14,709 bases of DNA from Verrucomicrobiota bacterium (GTDB lineage Bacteria > Verrucomicrobiota > Verrucomicrobiia > Opitutales > Seribacteraceae), in contig JACNJI010000309.1 in the NCBI GenBank assembly GCA_014382645.1, positions 1 to 14,709 on the forward strand. The letters are read 5' to 3'. Numbering within the stretch: the stretch's first letter is position 1; each line of letters opens with the position of its first letter. Of this stretch, positions 4,801-11,937 are shown piece by piece. A program made the position numbers and the translations under genes. The notes under the pieces were generated by a model that was not told where the DNA came from, ran no database searches, and worked only from the letters and a program-made list of their open reading frames with translations.

Positions 4801-5471
4801 CACTGGCAACCGACGGCTCCTACCTCATCGGCCGAACAACCAACGGCGTCCGAGTCGCCGACGTCAACCAAATCGACTCCCCGTACGAGTGGCCCAATGC
4901 TATGCTATCGGGAAACCTCTACCCGACCATCGGGCATTTCGTCTCGTCCCCCGACGGCATTCGCATACCCGTGGGAAACTACGGGGTCGAATACCTGCCC
5001 ATTCCCCCATCCACGGAACGACGAACCCTTAAAGCCCGCCGTTCGGGCACGGTCGAAGACTGGACGGTTCTGGACGAATCCCTATTCCGGGTATTCAAGG
5101 CGGACGAGGTTCCCGTCTCGCTCGCCCACGCCTCCTCGCCCGGTTGGAAATTTCGACCGGCCTCAGCCCTCGACCAAAATGCCACCTCGCTGGAAGCCCA
5201 TTGGAAAAGCCTGCCGTGGTTTGGTTTTTTCCACGCCCGGAGTTACCCGTGGATCTACCATGCCCGCCTTGGCTGGACCTATGTTTCCGAAGGCGAAGAA
5301 AACGCGCTCTGGATCTGGCGAGCAAAGAGCGGTTGGCTCTGGACACGACCCGATCTCTACCCCCACCTTTATCATCACGCGACCACCGCCTGGACCTACC
5401 TCGACCTTCAAGCGGCCTCCGACACCGTCCGCCTCTACGATCGCTCCGCCCAGGACTGGAGAACCGAATAG
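1872..5471 (+). CDS. Large secreted beta-propeller protein with LVIVD-like repeats and Trp/Tyr-rich C-terminus
   Basis: This 1199-residue protein starts at TTG 1872. No ATG occurs for well over 100 codons, and the TTG gives a good signal peptide (residues 1-24, FIIASFGFAIIANAAFA core), so the start is supported although no Shine-Dalgarno site is visible. Repeats of the form hydrophobic-DLS/DLT-x-P-x-x-P recur: VVDLSQPNDP, TFDLSDPDNP, IIDLTKPKTP, FDISDKENP, VTDFADRENP and FDLTEPKSP. Each is followed by strands such as YAYVV. This is the pattern of secreted beta-propeller proteins (Pfam Beta_propel, related to WD40) and LVIVD repeats. The last about 90 residues, from about 1107, are a distinct domain with WIYH, GWTY, WIW, GWLW and WTYL motifs. 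It likely acts outside the cytoplasm as a binding or scaffold protein; no catalytic residues are apparent and the ligand is unknown. It ends 5 nt from the convergent MetK-like gene. Confidence 0.82.
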   Translation: MNRACHPFIIASFGFAIIANAAFAVGENWNQASIWLKKGDVVEVSAPAEAKRVRLEIRDKETGEWDAVKTGHLPGSRAGKIYLEIPFDVDRSRVRVRWNNSDPLPYSFYEGRSKFGAREGDASSASAQFRTAELAFSAVADSAEASDDGTDNVQESDVWRLSGDRLYFFNQMRGLQVVDLSQPNDPKVIARHRLPASGEQMYVTDDGDYAFLLARKADQGWPYSSEVRVLKLDGSEISEVARLDLDASYKESRMVGDKLYVLSEKWEKDKMAWQNWSFSYSTRLATFDLSDPDNPRKIDEKILAGAPQVISATNSNLMVVTRDPSDYYNKHLVHVFDLTGFTGVPEQVTEVKPGGRVLDKFKLRIRNGILTVISQAYREESWRARYSLLETFKLSTGKRLGSMELAERETLYATRFDGDYAYVVTFLRTDPLFIIDLTKPKTPRLISELIVPGWSEYIQPMGDQLFAVGVEEGRVTASLFDISDKENPRLAYRVFMGKEGAYSWSEANYDEKAIGQLPSQNLFLIPFQSWEEGGYVKKVQILEVTNTGLVTRGEITHRFQARRAAPDETGMHIFSISGNELRVTDFADRENPKPLAQMPLAWKVDRIHLSGEHLLQIEDQGGYYWGWGISSQDANATLRVTKTATPDELISSLNLGGGTIAGSLVHAGKLHLALANNGKLVAEVYDLEANGSAIRLASAEVKLKSGTYRPELKAFILDEKTVCWATIGKKGQTYLPYEYRRSSIMMDDVMYPYPSYGSATVEAHTFTFEENLAGSTLVHEANASITLAGNVQWSEPFLLQNRILYGSTVTNHLYDSKETWRVVNSDVNSSLHGFDLTEPKSPKILATASLPGLLAGVHQLEEGSQEAYLFAESKDTSIGIYRPMPINLDDDSGENKIIPETERYGRSLTACAYDGTLAYYLDELDLSGTSGPLAVAKGNVFVGLSNSQSPGVDGYRIDESGLFAKTSGLFKGENLTALATDGSYLIGRTTNGVRVADVNQIDSPYEWPNAMLSGNLYPTIGHFVSSPDGIRIPVGNYGVEYLPIPPSTERRTLKARRSGTVEDWTVLDESLFRVFKADEVPVSLAHASSPGWKFRPASALDQNATSLEAHWKSLPWFGFFHARSYPWIYHARLGWTYVSEGEENALWIWRAKSGWLWTRPDLYPHLYHHATTAWTYLDLQAASDTVRLYDRSAQDWRTE

Positions 5472-5476
5472 GTCTT

Positions 5477-6436
5477 TCAACTTTCCCAAGGCAGGTCGGG
5501 GTTTTGGAAGTAGCCCGACAGAGCCACTTTCGGCCAATCGACGATCCCGAGATCGAGATCCCTGAAAATAACGTCGATGCCGAACCAGTCACGGGGAGGC
5601 AATTGATTGACTGCAAGTTCCTGCCACCCACCGGTAGCCCGCAAATGGGCTTCCACAAGAAAAGGCTCGGCTTCTCCCGGAGACCAGCCAAGTCGCACGC
5701 GCACCGGTTCGCCGTGCGTCTTGCATAGACGCTTGGCAAGTTGGCGGGCTCGCAGTGGACCTACCCGATCTATCTTGTGCGGATCCTTCCCGCAGAGGGC
5801 TCCTCCGCCAATCGGGACCGCCGGACCATAATGGTCCACCACCAGTTTCCTGCCGCTCAGGCCATTGTCGCCCTGGGGCCCGCCTTGGCAAAAGTCACCC
5901 GCGCCGTTGAGATAAAACTTCTCGATCCCAAAGGTGGAGGATAGCCCAGTCAGTTCGGACTGTTTCTCGAGTGCGCTCAAGGTGTCTGCGAGAAAGGGAA
6001 ACCGTTTCCGGTACTGCAGTTCGTAATCGATTCCCTTGCGGTGTTGGAGACTGACCGTGAGACGTTCCCATTCCCAGCTCGTCGACGAACAAGCCCCTAC
6101 CCGTCGTAGAATCGGCAAAACCTTGAGGTCGGGCCCGAAGTCATGGACCCTACGCGAGCGCCAAGCCTCCAGGCAGCTCCCGATTCGATTGGCGAGCCAA
6201 TCAGCAGCGGGCAGGTAATTGGTCTCGGGCGAGTCCTCGGCAAATCCGAGGACAATGTTCTGGTCGTCGGACAGGGAGCGAATTTCATCCTCTTCCTCGG
6301 ACAAGGTCTCTATACAGGTTGAAATCTTAACCTTGAGGACTTCCGGTCCGGGTCCCCAGTGCGCTCCATACCGCGCATCCCGGCCTATGGCCTTGTACCA
6401 CCGTGGCGATCCCCTCGCCCGGTTGGTAACCCGCAC
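5477..6436 (-). CDS. Divergent, N-terminally truncated S-adenosylmethionine synthetase (MetK) homolog
   Basis: The frame runs from GTG 6436 to TGA 5477-5479 (319 residues; MetK is usually about 380-400). Alignment by eye covers MetK from about residue 55 to the end. Matches include a Gly-Phe-Ala strand after SDDQ at 57-60 (MetK GAGDQG...FGYA), LTVSLQH at 126-132, GGPQGDNGLSGRK at 185-197, GGGALCGKDPHKID at 210-223, and a C-terminus ending GYF...LPWES like MetK GHFG...FPWE. The C-terminal active-site Asp, Arg and Lys residues of these motifs (D190, R196, K197, K217, K221, D223) are kept. The first about 50 MetK residues, including HPDK that binds ATP and metal, are absent: an in-frame TAA at 6473-6475 blocks extension and no ATG lies between. 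It is either a decaying paralog or a repurposed protein. There is no frame break within the 319 codons. It stands alone, convergent with the beta-propeller gene. Confidence 0.72.
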   Translation of the reverse strand: MRVTNRARGSPRWYKAIGRDARYGAHWGPGPEVLKVKISTCIETLSEEEDEIRSLSDDQNIVLGFAEDSPETNYLPAADWLANRIGSCLEAWRSRRVHDFGPDLKVLPILRRVGACSSTSWEWERLTVSLQHRKGIDYELQYRKRFPFLADTLSALEKQSELTGLSSTFGIEKFYLNGAGDFCQGGPQGDNGLSGRKLVVDHYGPAVPIGGGALCGKDPHKIDRVGPLRARQLAKRLCKTHGEPVRVRLGWSPGEAEPFLVEAHLRATGGWQELAVNQLPPRDWFGIDVIFRDLDLGIVDWPKVALSGYFQNPDLPWES

Positions 6437-6592: not shown

Positions 6593-8242
6593 ATGCATTC
6601 GAGCCCCAAAACAGCAATGAAGGTCGCCCGCGAGGACAATCTCGTGGTGGCGTTGCGAGACTTGCATTCGGGCGAGATCGTCGAGGTGGAAGGGGAAACC
6701 TACGAGTTGCCCGACAATGTTTCCGCCAAGCATAAGTTTGCCGACAAGGATTTTGAAAAGGGTGACCTCGCCACCATGTACGGGGTGGTTGTTGGGGAGA
6801 CCACCCAAGCCGTTCCACGCGGTGGCCCCCTCACCACCGAGAACCTCGCCCATCGCTCGGCGGAATATGGCGAACAGACTGAGGAAATATCGTGGAACGC
6901 CCCCGACGTCTCTCGCTGGAAGGACGTAACCTTTAATGGATTCCACCGCAGCGATGGCTCCGTCGGCACCGCCAACCACTGGCTGGTCATCCCCATGGTC
7001 TTCTGCGAAAACGGGAATGTTGAGCTTCTGCGAGAGGCCATGCTTCGAGCACTGGGCTACGAGCGACGCGGTCACTATCAGACATTTGCCCAGGAGCTCG
7101 CCGAAACATGCCGAACGGGTGGCGATCTTTCGCGCGTCAGCCTGCCCGAGGAGGGAGAAATTCGACCTTCCCCCATTTTCCCCAACGTCGATGGAGTGAA
7201 ATTCCTCGTCCACGGCCTTGGTTGTGGAGAGACCCGCGGGATATCTAACGAGCTATGCGGCTTGTTGGCGGGATACGCGAACCACCCGAACGTGGCCGGC
7301 GTCACCATATTGAGCCTTGGCTGTCAACACGCTCAGGTTTCCATTCTGGAGGAGGAAATAGCCAAGAGAAACCCGAGTTTCGACAAACCCCTTCTAGTAT
7401 ACGAACAACAAAAACATCCCTCCGAGCGCGATATGCTCGAACGGGCCATACGCGAAACGTTCGAAGGTCTCCGCAAGGCCAATGAGTGTGAACGTCTACC
7501 TGCCTCTCTCTCCAAGCTTACCCTAGGCATGGAGTGCGGGGCATCCGACGGGTTTTCGGGCATTTCCGCGAACCCCACCCTCGGCCGAGTCGCCGACCTG
7601 ACCGTTGCTCTGGGTGGTCGCGTAATCCTTTCCGAATTTCCTGAGCTTTGCGGAGTTGAACAGGAGTTGGTGAACCGTTGCGCGGAACCGGCCATAGGTC
7701 GACGCTTCATCGACATCATGAGAAACTACGAAGACCGGGCAAAGGAAGCCGGATCCGGTTTTCACATGAACCCCTCACCGGGCAACGTAAAAGACGGCTT
7801 GATCACCGACGCCATAAAGTCGGCGGGGGCTGCTCGAAAAGGCGGCACTTCACCGGTGGTCGATGCCCTAGACTATCCCGGTTGGGTTTCCAAGCCCGGC
7901 CTTTCCTTGCTCTGTACCGCCGGAAACGACGTGGAGTCGACCACCGCAATGGCGGGGGCGGGGGCCAACCTCATGCTCTTCTCCACGGGGCTCGGCACGC
8001 CCACGGGAAACCCCGTAGCCCCGGTCGTCAAAGTGTCCACCAATAGCAAGCTCGCGGAATCCTTCGTAGAATACATAGACTTTGACACTGGCCCTATCAT
8101 CCGAGGGGAAAGCACGGTCGAGGAAAAGGGGGATGAACTGTTCGAATCCGTCATCGCCTATGCAAGCGGAGAAAAAATGACCAAGGCCGTACGCCAGGGA
8201 CGAGACGACTTTCTACCTTGGAAGCGAGGAATGTCTCTGTAG
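6593..8242 (+). CDS. UxaA-family (altronate/galactarate-type) sugar-acid dehydratase, likely L-fuconate dehydratase role
   Basis: The 549-residue product has the full two-part UxaA architecture. An N-terminal SAF-like domain spans about 9-95 (AREDNLVVALRDL, then SAKHKFA and GVVVGE). The large dehydratase domain follows, with GFHRSDGSVGTANHW near 115-129, HGLGCGETRG near 208, LSLGCQHAQ near 240, GMECGASDGFSG near 311-322, SPGN, and a C-terminal STGLGTPTGNPVAPVVKV. The conserved Cys and His residues fit the metal-dependent (iron) water-eliminating family. The family dehydrates aldonic or aldaric acids to 2-keto-3-deoxy acids. The L-fuconate role is inferred from the downstream genes and from my recollection of UxaA homologs in Campylobacter and Veillonella fucose loci. 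ATG 6593 is the first start; ATG 6617 is an alternative that trims eight non-conserved residues. Neither has a clear Shine-Dalgarno. It is the first gene of the operon, with the next start 11 nt after its TAG. Confidence 0.87.
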   Translation: MHSSPKTAMKVAREDNLVVALRDLHSGEIVEVEGETYELPDNVSAKHKFADKDFEKGDLATMYGVVVGETTQAVPRGGPLTTENLAHRSAEYGEQTEEISWNAPDVSRWKDVTFNGFHRSDGSVGTANHWLVIPMVFCENGNVELLREAMLRALGYERRGHYQTFAQELAETCRTGGDLSRVSLPEEGEIRPSPIFPNVDGVKFLVHGLGCGETRGISNELCGLLAGYANHPNVAGVTILSLGCQHAQVSILEEEIAKRNPSFDKPLLVYEQQKHPSERDMLERAIRETFEGLRKANECERLPASLSKLTLGMECGASDGFSGISANPTLGRVADLTVALGGRVILSEFPELCGVEQELVNRCAEPAIGRRFIDIMRNYEDRAKEAGSGFHMNPSPGNVKDGLITDAIKSAGAARKGGTSPVVDALDYPGWVSKPGLSLLCTAGNDVESTTAMAGAGANLMLFSTGLGTPTGNPVAPVVKVSTNSKLAESFVEYIDFDTGPIIRGESTVEEKGDELFESVIAYASGEKMTKAVRQGRDDFLPWKRGMSL

Positions 8243-8253
8243 ATTTAGAAAAC

Positions 8254-9039
8254 ATGAGCTCAATATCTCTCAAAGACAAAGTTGCCGTAGTGACCGGAGG
8301 CGGCAAAGGAATCGGTCAAGCCATAGCCAAAAGGTTTGCCTCTAGCGGGGCAGCCGTAGCGATCTGGGAACTGGATGAAAAAGCAGGCAACGAAACCGTC
8401 GCCGCCATTTGCGATGACGGCGGGACAGCGCAAGCGTTTTCCTGCGACGTGTCAGACCCGGAGAGCGTGCAGAACGCCTCCGAGGAGACGATCGAACAAC
8501 TCGGGCAAGTCTCGATACTTGTCAACAACGCCGGCATCGCTCACATAGGAACGGCCGAGACAACGAGTGAGGAAGACTTCGACCGCATTCTCAAAATAAA
8601 CGCCAAGGGCGTATACAACTGCCTACATCACGTTCTCCCCGGCATGGTCGAGGCAAAGTCAGGCGTCGTGCTCAATCTCGCGTCCATTGCCTCGCGTCTA
8701 GGAATCTCCGAACGGTTCGCCTACTCCGCCAGCAAGGGAGCCGTTCTGGCAATGACCCTGAGCGTGGCCAAGGATTACGTCGACAAGGGAATCCGCTGCA
8801 ATTGCTTGTGCCCGGGGCGCGTCCAAACGCCATTTGTCGACGGATACCTGAAAGAGGATTAGCCCGACGAGGAGAAACGAGCCGGGATGTTCCGGAAACT
8901 TTCCGAGTATCAGCCCATGGGGCGCATGGGGCAACCCGAGGAAATTGCCGCGCTCGCCACTTTCCTCTGCTCCGATGAGGCTGCATTCATCACTGGTTCC
9001 GCCTACGACGTTGATGGTGGCACGATGCTGCTTCGCTGA
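8254..9039 (+). pseudogene. SDR dehydrogenase (2-keto-3-deoxy-L-fuconate dehydrogenase-like), interrupted by in-frame TAG
   Basis: The preferred start is ATG 8254 (MSSISLKDKVAVVTGG), not the TTG at 8218, which overlaps the previous gene. The frame has TGGGKGIG at 14-21 (NAD(P) binding), NNAG at 91-94, and the catalytic Ser144, Tyr157 and Lys161 in YSASK. A TAG at 8860-8862 replaces codon 203. The same frame then continues without shift for 58 codons ([10 protein letters not shown], then [30 protein letters not shown]) to TGA 9037-9039, exactly as intact SDRs do. Relatives usually have Tyr before the Pro-Asp/Glu here, so one base change (TAT or TAC to TAG) explains it. Without repair, the 202-residue product lacks the substrate lid and C-terminal helices. 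In the pathway it would oxidise 2-keto-3-deoxy-L-fuconate to the 2,4-diketo acid. A sequencing or assembly error is a real alternative. An ATG at 8887, with GAGGAG upstream, could restart translation of the last 50 residues. Confidence 0.85.
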
Positions 9040-9086: not shown

Positions 9087-9941
9087 ATGAAATTAATTCG
9101 AAAAGGGGAACCGGGAGAAGAATCACCCGGGCTCATCCTGCCCGACGGTCGCGAGGTCGACGCCTCCGCATTCGACGAAGACTACGACGAAATATTCCTG
9201 GAGACCGACGGTCTCGAACGCCTCGCGGAATGGGCAAGCGAACACGCCGATTCATCTCCTCCCTTTCCTGACGGCGAGCGCTATGGCCCACCTATCAATC
9301 GCCCGAGCAAGATTGTCTGCATCGGTTTGAACTTCGCCGACCATGCCGCCGAATCAGGCATGGAACTGCCCGCCGAACCTGTCATCTTCTTCAAAGCCTC
9401 CTCCGCTTTTTGTGGTCCGAACGACGACTTGATAATTCCTCGCGGGGGAGACAAGACCGACTGGGAAGTCGAACTCGCCTTCGTAATAGGCAAGCGGGCA
9501 AGCTACGTCGACGAAACAGAAGCTCTCGACCACCTCGCCGGCTACGCCCTCCACAACGACTACAGTGAACGAGGCTTCCAACTGGATCGCTGCGGCCAAT
9601 GGGTAAAGGGGAAAAGCTGCGATTCCTTTGCTCCCTTGGGGCCCTTCCTCGCCACGCCCGACGAGATCGGCGACGTAAACAACCTCCGCATGTGGCTCAC
9701 GGTGAATGGAGAGAACAAACAAGAAAGCAACACCTCGAATCTTCACTTCAAGATTCCCTTTCTAATAAGTTATCTCAGCCAGTTCATGACTCTCCTTCCG
9801 GGAGACGTGATCTCGACGGGGACCCCTCCGGGAGTGGGTCTCGGCTTGGACCCTCCACAATACCTGAAACCCGGCGACGTGGTGGAACTGGGCATAGAAG
9901 GTCTCGGCACGTCTAGCCAAACTGCAGTCGCAGCTAAATGA
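9087..9941 (+). CDS. Fumarylacetoacetate hydrolase-family enzyme, likely 2,4-diketo-3-deoxy-L-fuconate hydrolase
   Basis: The 284-residue length is typical for this family. The N-terminal strand-rich domain (about 1-65) precedes the FAH catalytic core. KIVCIGLNFADHAAE is at 75-89. The metal ligands are E127 and E129 in DWEVELAFVIG and D158 in HNDYSER. GKSCDSFAPLGP begins at 175, and GDVISTGTPPGVG lies at 239-251. Together these match bacterial acylpyruvate hydrolases and the 2,4-diketo-3-deoxy-L-fuconate hydrolases, which need Mg or Mn and cleave a C-C bond. In this operon the expected products are pyruvate and L-lactate; with a pentose substrate they would be pyruvate and glycolate. The stop overlaps the next start (ATGA at 9938-9941), so translation is probably coupled. 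The start is 47 nt after the end of the interrupted SDR, without a clear Shine-Dalgarno. The family call is certain; the substrate comes from context. Confidence 0.9.
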   Translation: MKLIRKGEPGEESPGLILPDGREVDASAFDEDYDEIFLETDGLERLAEWASEHADSSPPFPDGERYGPPINRPSKIVCIGLNFADHAAESGMELPAEPVIFFKASSAFCGPNDDLIIPRGGDKTDWEVELAFVIGKRASYVDETEALDHLAGYALHNDYSERGFQLDRCGQWVKGKSCDSFAPLGPFLATPDEIGDVNNLRMWLTVNGENKQESNTSNLHFKIPFLISYLSQFMTLLPGDVISTGTPPGVGLGLDPPQYLKPGDVVELGIEGLGTSSQTAVAAK

Positions 9942-10732
9942 ATCTGGAACTAGAAGGCAAGGTGGTGCTCGTCACGGGCGGGGCAAAAGGCATCGGCGAA
10001 GCGATTGTTCGTTCCTTTGCGAACGAAGGCGCGGTCGTCTCCATCGTCGACCGCAACCCCGACGTCGCCGAACAGCTTATTCAAGACATTGAGTCCTCGG
10101 GAGGGAAAGCCTTCTGCATTCCCACCGAGCTCACGGACGAGGAGGCATGCCGCAACGCCGTCGAACAAACCATCGGCCTAGGCGGAAGTCTCGACGTACT
10201 CGTGCACAATGCGGGAGTGAACGACGGTGTGGGTATCGACTCCTCTCCAAGCGATTTTCTGAGCTCCATTCAAAAGAGCCTTTTTCACGTCTTCGCCCTC
10301 ACCCACTTCGCCCTGGACAAGCTTGTCGAATCGAAGGGAAACGTAATTAACATCGGCTCCAAGGTAGCCGTCACGGGACAAGGAGGAACATCCGGCTACG
10401 CCGCTTGCAAGGGCGCCATGAACGCCCTCACCCGGGAATGGGCTCTTGACCTCGCCGATCGCGGCGTACGCGTCAACGCCGTGATTCCAGCCGAGGTCAT
10501 GACTCCCATGTACAGACGCTGGCTGGACTCTCTCGACAACCCCGAAAAAACCTTGGCATCCATCGAGGAAAACATCCCGCTAGGCAAACGGATGACCACG
10601 GACGCGGAAATCGCGGATGCGGTAGTCTTTCTGGCATCCGCTCGATCGTCTCATACCACGGGCCAAATATTCTACCCCGATGGCGGTTACGTTCACTTCG
10701 ACCGTGCCTACGGAAAAATAAAACTCGACTGA
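9938..10732 (+). CDS. SDR-family L-fucose dehydrogenase
   Basis: The 264-residue protein has TGGAKGIG at 13-20 (cofactor loop), HNAG at 90-93, catalytic Ser141, and Tyr154 and Lys158 in SGYAACKGA. Several segments match, from memory, the Burkholderia L-fucose dehydrogenase of the non-phosphorylating pathway rather than SDRs in general: NAGVNDGVGID at 91-101, SKVAVTGQGGTSGY at 141-154, VNAVIPAEVMTPMYRRW at 179-195, IPLGKRMTT, and GGYVHFDRA at 249-257. It would oxidise the C1 hydroxyl of L-fucopyranose (and often D-arabinose or L-galactose) to the lactone with NAD(P)+. The start overlaps the FAH gene by 4 nt and the next gene begins 8 nt after its stop, so it is inside the operon. The encoded order does not follow pathway order: this first step is the fourth gene. 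A lactonase for its product is not in the window. Confidence 0.88.
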   Translation: MNLELEGKVVLVTGGAKGIGEAIVRSFANEGAVVSIVDRNPDVAEQLIQDIESSGGKAFCIPTELTDEEACRNAVEQTIGLGGSLDVLVHNAGVNDGVGIDSSPSDFLSSIQKSLFHVFALTHFALDKLVESKGNVINIGSKVAVTGQGGTSGYAACKGAMNALTREWALDLADRGVRVNAVIPAEVMTPMYRRWLDSLDNPEKTLASIEENIPLGKRMTTDAEIADAVVFLASARSSHTTGQIFYPDGGYVHFDRAYGKIKLD

Positions 10733-10740
10733 AACCATTC

Positions 10741-11937
10741 GTGAAGTCCGACGTCTGCATTATCGGCGGTGGGATCGTTGGCTTGGCCACGGCTTACCGC
10801 CTTTCCGAAAGCCACCCGGACAAACGAATCGTCGTTCTGGAAAAGGAGGCCCGCGTGGCCGAGCACCAGACGGGTCACAACTCGGGAGTCCTGCATTCCG
10901 GCATTTACTACAAACCCGGCTCTCTCAAGGCGATCAATTGTCGCGCAGGAAAAGTCGCCATGGAATCCTTTTGCGAAAAGGAAAACATCGACCACGATAT
11001 CTGCGGAAAAGTAATCGTGGCCCTCGACGACGAGGAAGTTCCCCGCATGCAAAAGATCTACGAACGTGGACAAGCCAACGGAATTAGCTGTGAACTAATC
11101 TCGAAGGAACGACTCGCGGAGCTCGAACCCCACTCCGCCGGCGTCGCAGCCATTCACGTGCCCGAGTGCGGAATCGTGAATTATCGACAGGTATGCGAAC
11201 GGTTAGCCCGTCGCGTCGATGAAAAAGACGGCAACCAAGTCATCAACGATGCCAAGGTTACCCGGATCAGCAAAACAACGGACGGCCAGGTCGTCCATTC
11301 GACACAAGGAGAAATCGAAACCGCATTCATCGTCAATTGCACGGGCCTTCACTCCGACCGGGTGACCTCCTTGGGCGGAGAAACCCCACCCGCCAAGATC
11401 ATTCCCTTCAAGGGCGAATACTACGAGTTAAAGAAGGAAGCCAGCCACCTCTGTCGCAACCTCATCTACCCGGTGCCCGACCCTCAGTTTCCTTTTCTCG
11501 GCGTCCACTTCACCCGGATGATCGACAACTCAGTCGAATGCGGTCCCAACGCCGTTCTCGCCTTTGGTCGCGAAGCCTACGGCAAGCTCGACCTCAACCT
11601 GCGGGACCTCCTCGAATCCCTGTTCTACCGTGGTTTCCAAAAAATGGCATGGAAACACTGGAAAATGGGCCTCGGTGAAATGTGGCGCTCCTACAACAAG
11701 GCGGCCTTCGTCAAAGCGCTGCGTCGACTCATTCCCGAGATCAACGCCAATCATCTGAAATCCGTACCTGCGGGAATTCGGGCCCAAGCGGTGACCCCCG
11801 ACGGCGGACTCGTCGACGACTTTCTCATTCAGGAAACGGATCGAATCGTAAACGTATGCAACGCCCCGTCTCCCGCCGCCACCGCATCACTCAACATAGG
11901 TAAGCACATCGTCGAAAAACTTGGGGAGAGATTCTAG
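10741..11937 (+). CDS. lhgO: L-2-hydroxyglutarate oxidase/dehydrogenase (LhgO)-like FAD protein
   Basis: The GTG start at 10741 lies 8 nt after the previous stop, and the protein begins directly with the Rossmann motif IIGGGIVGLATAYRL (GGGIVG at 9-14, acidic E34 closing the second strand). HNSGVLHSGIYYKPGSLKA at 46-64 and LGVHFTRMIDNSVECGPNAVLAF (from about residue 253, in two halves here) are signatures of LhgO in the DAO flavoprotein family. The length of 398 matches known LhgO proteins. LhgO oxidises L-2-hydroxyglutarate to 2-oxoglutarate and passes electrons to quinones at the membrane face. No transmembrane segment is seen. As the last gene of a fucose-type operon whose hydrolase should release L-lactate, it may accept that or another L-2-hydroxy acid; this is inference. 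Hydroxyglutarate repair is the alternative. A 7-bp hairpin follows the stop. Confidence 0.85.
   Translation: MKSDVCIIGGGIVGLATAYRLSESHPDKRIVVLEKEARVAEHQTGHNSGVLHSGIYYKPGSLKAINCRAGKVAMESFCEKENIDHDICGKVIVALDDEEVPRMQKIYERGQANGISCELISKERLAELEPHSAGVAAIHVPECGIVNYRQVCERLARRVDEKDGNQVINDAKVTRISKTTDGQVVHSTQGEIETAFIVNCTGLHSDRVTSLGGETPPAKIIPFKGEYYELKKEASHLCRNLIYPVPDPQFPFLGVHFTRMIDNSVECGPNAVLAFGREAYGKLDLNLRDLLESLFYRGFQKMAWKHWKMGLGEMWRSYNKAAFVKALRRLIPEINANHLKSVPAGIRAQAVTPDGGLVDDFLIQETDRIVNVCNAPSPAATASLNIGKHIVEKLGERF

Follow-up and report, generated by a model that had tools for sequence, protein, structure and literature searches.

An L-fucose-type operon with a split second gene

The window, a stretch of 14,709 nucleotides from a Verrucomicrobiota bacterium, is contig C399 of a MAG (here G000) that comprises 3.79 Mb in 557 contigs and is 88% complete. 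Between positions 6593 and 11937, it carries a five-gene operon of the L-fucose type in the order dehydratase, SDR, hydrolase, L-fucose dehydrogenase, and FAD oxidoreductase (Table 1). The same order was found in six of the nine stretches fetched from relatives, all six of which include the L-2-hydroxyglutarate-oxidase-type gene as fifth member, while two of the remaining stretches are cut by a contig end inside the fourth gene and one holds the SDR gene only. The five-gene order was not found in eight more distant loci examined.

The second gene of the operon is interrupted. Its first-pass annotation had described an SDR gene split by a TAG with the frame kept across it, as both the coordinates and the Pfam matches confirm. 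The piece before the TAG matches adh_short (E 2.5e-54), and past the TAG the frame stays open for 58 codons until the TGA at 9037-9039, this second piece matching the final stretch of adh_short_C2 (profile 189-235 of 236, E 4e-13). Since both pieces match Pfam SDR domains, they represent one split gene and no chance open run. The cofactor motif TGGGKGIG lies at residue 14 and is followed by the triad Ser144, Tyr157, and Lys161, as required of an L-2-keto-3-deoxyfuconate 4-dehydrogenase (L-KDFDH), while the C-terminal part has PMGRMGQ at 221 and an 11-residue tail motif at 246. Here, the translation reproduces the residue numbers and tail motifs given previously, and TAG is indeed the stop of the three neighbors named with them (5469-5471, 8240-8242, and 11935-11937). 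Two features had been missed, namely that codon 202 is also altered, encoding Asp where the orthologs described below have Tyr or, in three cases, Phe, His, and Thr, and that further in-frame stops occur in other genes of the same genome.

Table 1. Features of the operon in the window and sulfatase genes with two or more lesions on other contigs of G000.
Feature	Position	Strand	Evidence or content
Sugar-acid dehydratase, UxaA/GarD family (GD_AH domains), TAG stop	6593..8242	+	Pfam; galactarate dehydratase model 244 bits, below cut-off 731
Split SDR gene, 261 codons + TGA	8254..9039	+	Pfam on both pieces, full-length orthologs, operon context
N-terminal piece, 202 codons (cofactor motif, NNAG, catalytic Ser144/Tyr157/Lys161)	8254..8859	+	Translation, motif positions
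Codon 202 (Asp), second private change, adjoins stop	8857..8859	+	Tyr in 16/19 orthologs, P0001, and P0002
In-frame TAG, codon 203 of the SDR frame	8860..8862	+	Tyrosine column in 19/19 orthologs
C-terminal piece, 58 codons, conserved frame and sequence	8863..9036	+	1 amino-acid-changing vs 18 silent differences to G003
ATG, candidate restart, 50-residue product	8887..8889	+	Same Met internal in intact G003 protein
FAA-family hydrolase, like 2,4-didehydro-3-deoxy-L-rhamnonate hydrolase	9087..9941	+	PF01557; NF053535 334 bits, below cut-off 500
L-fucose dehydrogenase	9938..10732	+	NF052481 365 bits, above cut-off 300
FAD oxidoreductase, L-2-hydroxyglutarate oxidase family, TAG stop	10741..11937	+	NF008726 560 bits, above cut-off 299
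C37 sulfatase			TAG, second frame, 27-base tandem repeat
C421 sulfatase			TAG and frame change
C494 sulfatase			TAA and pieces in three frames
C295 sulfatase			Two TGA
C502 sulfatase		+	Two TAA

Judging by operon context and family, the SDR is probably an L-KDFDH. The fucose-type pathway proposed at first pass is supported by the match of the fourth gene to the L-fucose dehydrogenase model NF052481, providing the gene context expected of this enzyme. In addition, the SDR fold, the cofactor motif, the Ser-Tyr-Lys triad, and an L-fucose-type operon are shared with the L-KDFDH (EC 1.1.1.434) of Herbaspirillum huttiense, PDB entry 8Y11. When the stop was read as X, 8Y11 was matched at E 1.5e-44 as the eighth PDB entry in the list; it is thus distant in sequence and outside the five best matches, and it further differs in that the gene here is cut at codon 203. 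The complete C-terminal pocket expected of an L-KDFDH is missing, as the stop follows residue 202. By counting from the catalytic Tyr alone, Arg154, Arg189, and Tyr198 (Tyr or Phe at this position) may resemble the R-R-F-T pattern given as type 4 in passages of PMC11199699, the fourth position lying after the stop. Passages of the same paper report that the H. huttiense mutant R214A is inactive and that F211A and W252A have strongly reduced activity (PMC11199699). By the same count, the equivalents of F211, R214, and W252 would fall after the SDR stop.

The tyrosine codon in related genomes

The ortholog search covered 57 genomes including G000, and 19 of them besides G000 had a match of nearly full length with at least 56% identity. 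Two codons with unread bases in ortholog L017 are not stops, and a piece in G022 that ends at residue 158 was excluded from the set. Comparison with the orthologous locus, which had been suggested as a check, found a tyrosine codon at column 203 in all 19 orthologs and a stop, TAG or other, in none, supporting the proposal that the TAG arose from a tyrosine codon. Protein hits give a similar picture, as no short protein was found among the best 120 of 7,996, all of them having 256-275 residues, with the limit that clustering of the list at 90% could conceal a shortened one. Thirty of the 120 were aligned and have tyrosine at residues 202 and 203 throughout, and the closest hits listed, P0001 and P0002, are intact and 95 and 92% identical to the SDR.

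The ortholog in the Opitutia MAG G003, the closest related genome that carries it, encodes a protein 93% identical to the SDR within the same operon order and, unlike the SDR here, has no stop and a full 261 residues. G000 and G003 are the two of the five genomes of the genus in which an SDR ortholog was found (the three without it being 84, 51, and 69% complete), so that the fucose-type pathway may be dispensable in the genus. No close SDR paralog was found in the G000 assembly, where the next best matches reach at most 37% identity.

Compared with G003, the SDR shows 59 silent and 16 amino-acid-changing differences in codons 1-202, and 18 and 1, respectively, in codons 204-261. These counts indicate that purifying selection acted on the part behind the TAG until very recently. 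Among the four close sequences, private changes number four in G000 (codons 202 and 203 account for two), six in G003, four in P0001, and 11 in P0002. In the other four operon genes there is no stop, and of 670 columns invariant in the rest, two carry a private change, conservative in both cases. A clustering of differences around the TAG was considered and dropped, as a spot at least as dense as the densest one in the gene arose in 442 of 1000 shuffles. Taken together, the conserved tail, the few private changes, and the intact operon imply that the lesion is either very young or absent from the organism. Young nonsense pseudogenes of bacteria typically have a frame that is conserved apart from a single stop, while their relatives lack this stop, and the SDR gene resembles them in each respect. 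Its inactivating lesion has no counterpart in relatives, as expected of a nonsense pseudogene, whereas the relaxed selection or further lesions also expected of one were not found in the gene.

The main rival possibility, that a sequencing or consensus error in an assembled metagenome produced the stop and that the gene is intact in the living population, is less likely than a recent mutation but suits several of these observations. The MAG lies in 557 contigs, the remainder of the SDR gene and of the operon is intact and conserved, intact proteins of 95 and 92% identity are present among the database hits, and the private changes in the adjacent codons 202 and 203 resemble one bad spot. Moreover, a base error rate of 0.1% would place a stop in 2.7% of 261-codon genes, so that some such genes are expected per genome. 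Some of these points also count directly against a recent mutation, since neither the rest of the SDR gene nor the four other operon genes show decay, and since local base errors could equally have caused the adjacent changes at codons 202 and 203.

Decoding of the TAG and restart of translation

The first-pass annotation had offered four explanations for the stop, and the comparison supports inactivation or sequence error and disfavors readthrough and restart. It had also argued from the use of TAG as a stop against general recoding, which the genome corroborates. RF1 is present in G000 with a score over the cut-off, no CUA anticodon occurs among the 30 tRNAs read with ARAGORN, of 31 tRNA matches in this 88% complete genome, and TAG ends 47 of the 166 ORFs in a 205-kb sample, the split SDR included. 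The loss of RF1 or the TAG-reading tRNA expected of recoding is thus not seen, nor is the stop conserved at the site in any of the 19 orthologs, as would be expected of readthrough or recoding. Recoding of TAG was rejected on RF1, the tRNAs, the use of TAG as a stop, and the relatives, and is regarded as very unlikely. The 31st tRNA match, at C539 272-353 (-), is weak (29.4 bits), has a CAU-like loop, and was not called by ARAGORN; it is perhaps decayed or misread.

Readthrough of the TAG by a suppressor tRNA, or as a programmed event, would yield the full protein and could account for the conservation of frame and sequence past the stop. Another in-frame TAG of the genome, likewise followed by conserved sequence, might also point that way. 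It is found in a sulfatase with EF-hand-like repeats at C361 6803-8602 (-), which ends in TAG while a further repeat continues in frame, the preceding repeat having Trp at the TAG position. Yet the homologous residues differ between the two sites, Tyr in the SDR and Trp in the sulfatase, in-frame TAA and TGA occur in the genome as well, and selA is absent from G000, with matches obtained in control genomes including E. coli. With RF1 present, no CUA anticodon among the tRNAs read, TAG in ordinary use as a stop, and no stop at the site in any ortholog, readthrough is highly improbable.

A restart at the ATG at 8887, by which the two pieces would form a working split enzyme, is barely credible. 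In its favor, the ATG is found 24 bases past the TAG and has AGGAG upstream at 8870-8874, but the intact G003 gene has the same Met and AGGAG as part of its normal coding sequence. Furthermore, the 50-residue product is probably too short for a fold of its own, and the gene is unbroken at this point in all 19 orthologs. Most likely, the stop in the SDR gene is an ordinary kind of event that involves no new decoding.

Other broken genes and the origin of the stop

In-frame stops are found in 9 of the 112 sulfatase matches of G000, at eight places, and these 11 stops comprise four TAA, five TGA, and two TAG. As all three kinds of stop turn up in genes of G000, TAG does not stand out, and some of its genes appear to decay. 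In contrast, none of the 104 sulfatase matches of G003 has an in-frame stop (Fisher p 0.002 vs G000), while G001 and G006 together have 224 sulfatase matches with at least one stop (in G006) among the matches listed. Within G000, no stop was found in 37 ABC and 31 GFO_IDH matches; the contrast between 9/112 sulfatases and 0/68 of these matches (p 0.012) is weakened by a sulfatase profile more than twice as long. A TGA inside FabG-like matches was also considered as a lesion, and in L003, the one examined, it is the gene's own end. The partial rpoB of G000 has no stop, and a comparison of 14 genomes showed no change private to it at the 496 columns that are invariant in the others, G007 (split match) and G001 (covering the other end) having been left out of the 16 genomes matched.

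Two or more lesions are present at five of the broken sulfatase places (Table 1). The exact 27-base tandem repeat in the C37 gene lies within 5563-6111 of its contig. In two sulfatases, C502:4337-5305 (-) and C295:4358-5389 (+), the TGA falls exactly at the active-site Cys. The active-site motif of sulfatases is C-x-P-S-R, and aligned paralogs have Cys at this position. Selenocysteine was considered for these TGA codons and rejected on the absence of selA, so that both are probably dead genes or errors.

These observations bear on the error explanation. A uniform high error rate is unsupported, as rpoB, the ABC and GFO_IDH matches, and the neighboring operon genes are clean, the last with the two private changes at 670 columns noted above, and several sulfatases broken more than once are hard to reconcile with a uniform low rate. 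The multi-lesion sulfatases thus favor true decay of certain genes over errors at a uniform rate, though a few poor contigs could have the same effect. The sulfatase lesions could partly be assembly faults, which, like the 557 contigs and 88% completeness of the MAG, tells against a recent mutation in the SDR gene.

On balance, we consider it fairly likely that a very young nonsense mutation broke the L-KDFDH gene and removed the end of its substrate pocket. Translation would then stop after residue 202, leaving a product that retains its NAD-binding half and its catalytic triad and loses the last 58 residues. The lost residues should include the last strand of the SDR fold and some of the substrate pocket, so that the product would be inactive. 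In cells with the TAG allele, the pathway would be halted at 2-keto-3-deoxy-L-fuconate, and the similar, partly multiple lesions in other genes, sulfatases included, would reflect ongoing gene decay in the lineage. Verrucomicrobiota are described in passages of PMC8857213 as sulfatase-rich and as using methyl pentoses via isomerases and microcompartments. Given such isomerase use, loss of the fucose-type route would not necessarily be costly.

If the mutation is real, the locus provides a small, clear case of a sugar pathway at the first step of its loss in a marine verrucomicrobial lineage, and this loss stands beside a partly decaying set of sulfatases. If it is an error, it serves as a warning to seek read support for any single in-frame stop in a MAG, and in either case knowledge of the genetic code is unchanged. 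It could be speculated that the lineage is giving up sulfated methyl pentoses as a set, as L-KDFDH and about eight of some 100 sulfatase genes would have been broken within a short time while the sister genome G003 has no stops, and we find this doubtful. Regarding a fucosidase link, G000 and G003 have a single GH29 match each, low-scoring though over the cut-off.

Elsewhere in the window, a MetK-like gene at 5477-6436 (-) is without its N-terminal part, its form in G003 having 383 residues. Between the MetK-like gene and the dehydratase, G003 has about 4 kb of extra sequence in which genes of the AAA ATPase and VWA types were recognized by eye in the translation. The flanks near 6361-6380 meet at around 20 bases that can be aligned to either of the two G003 sites, which makes a deletion in the lineage likely.
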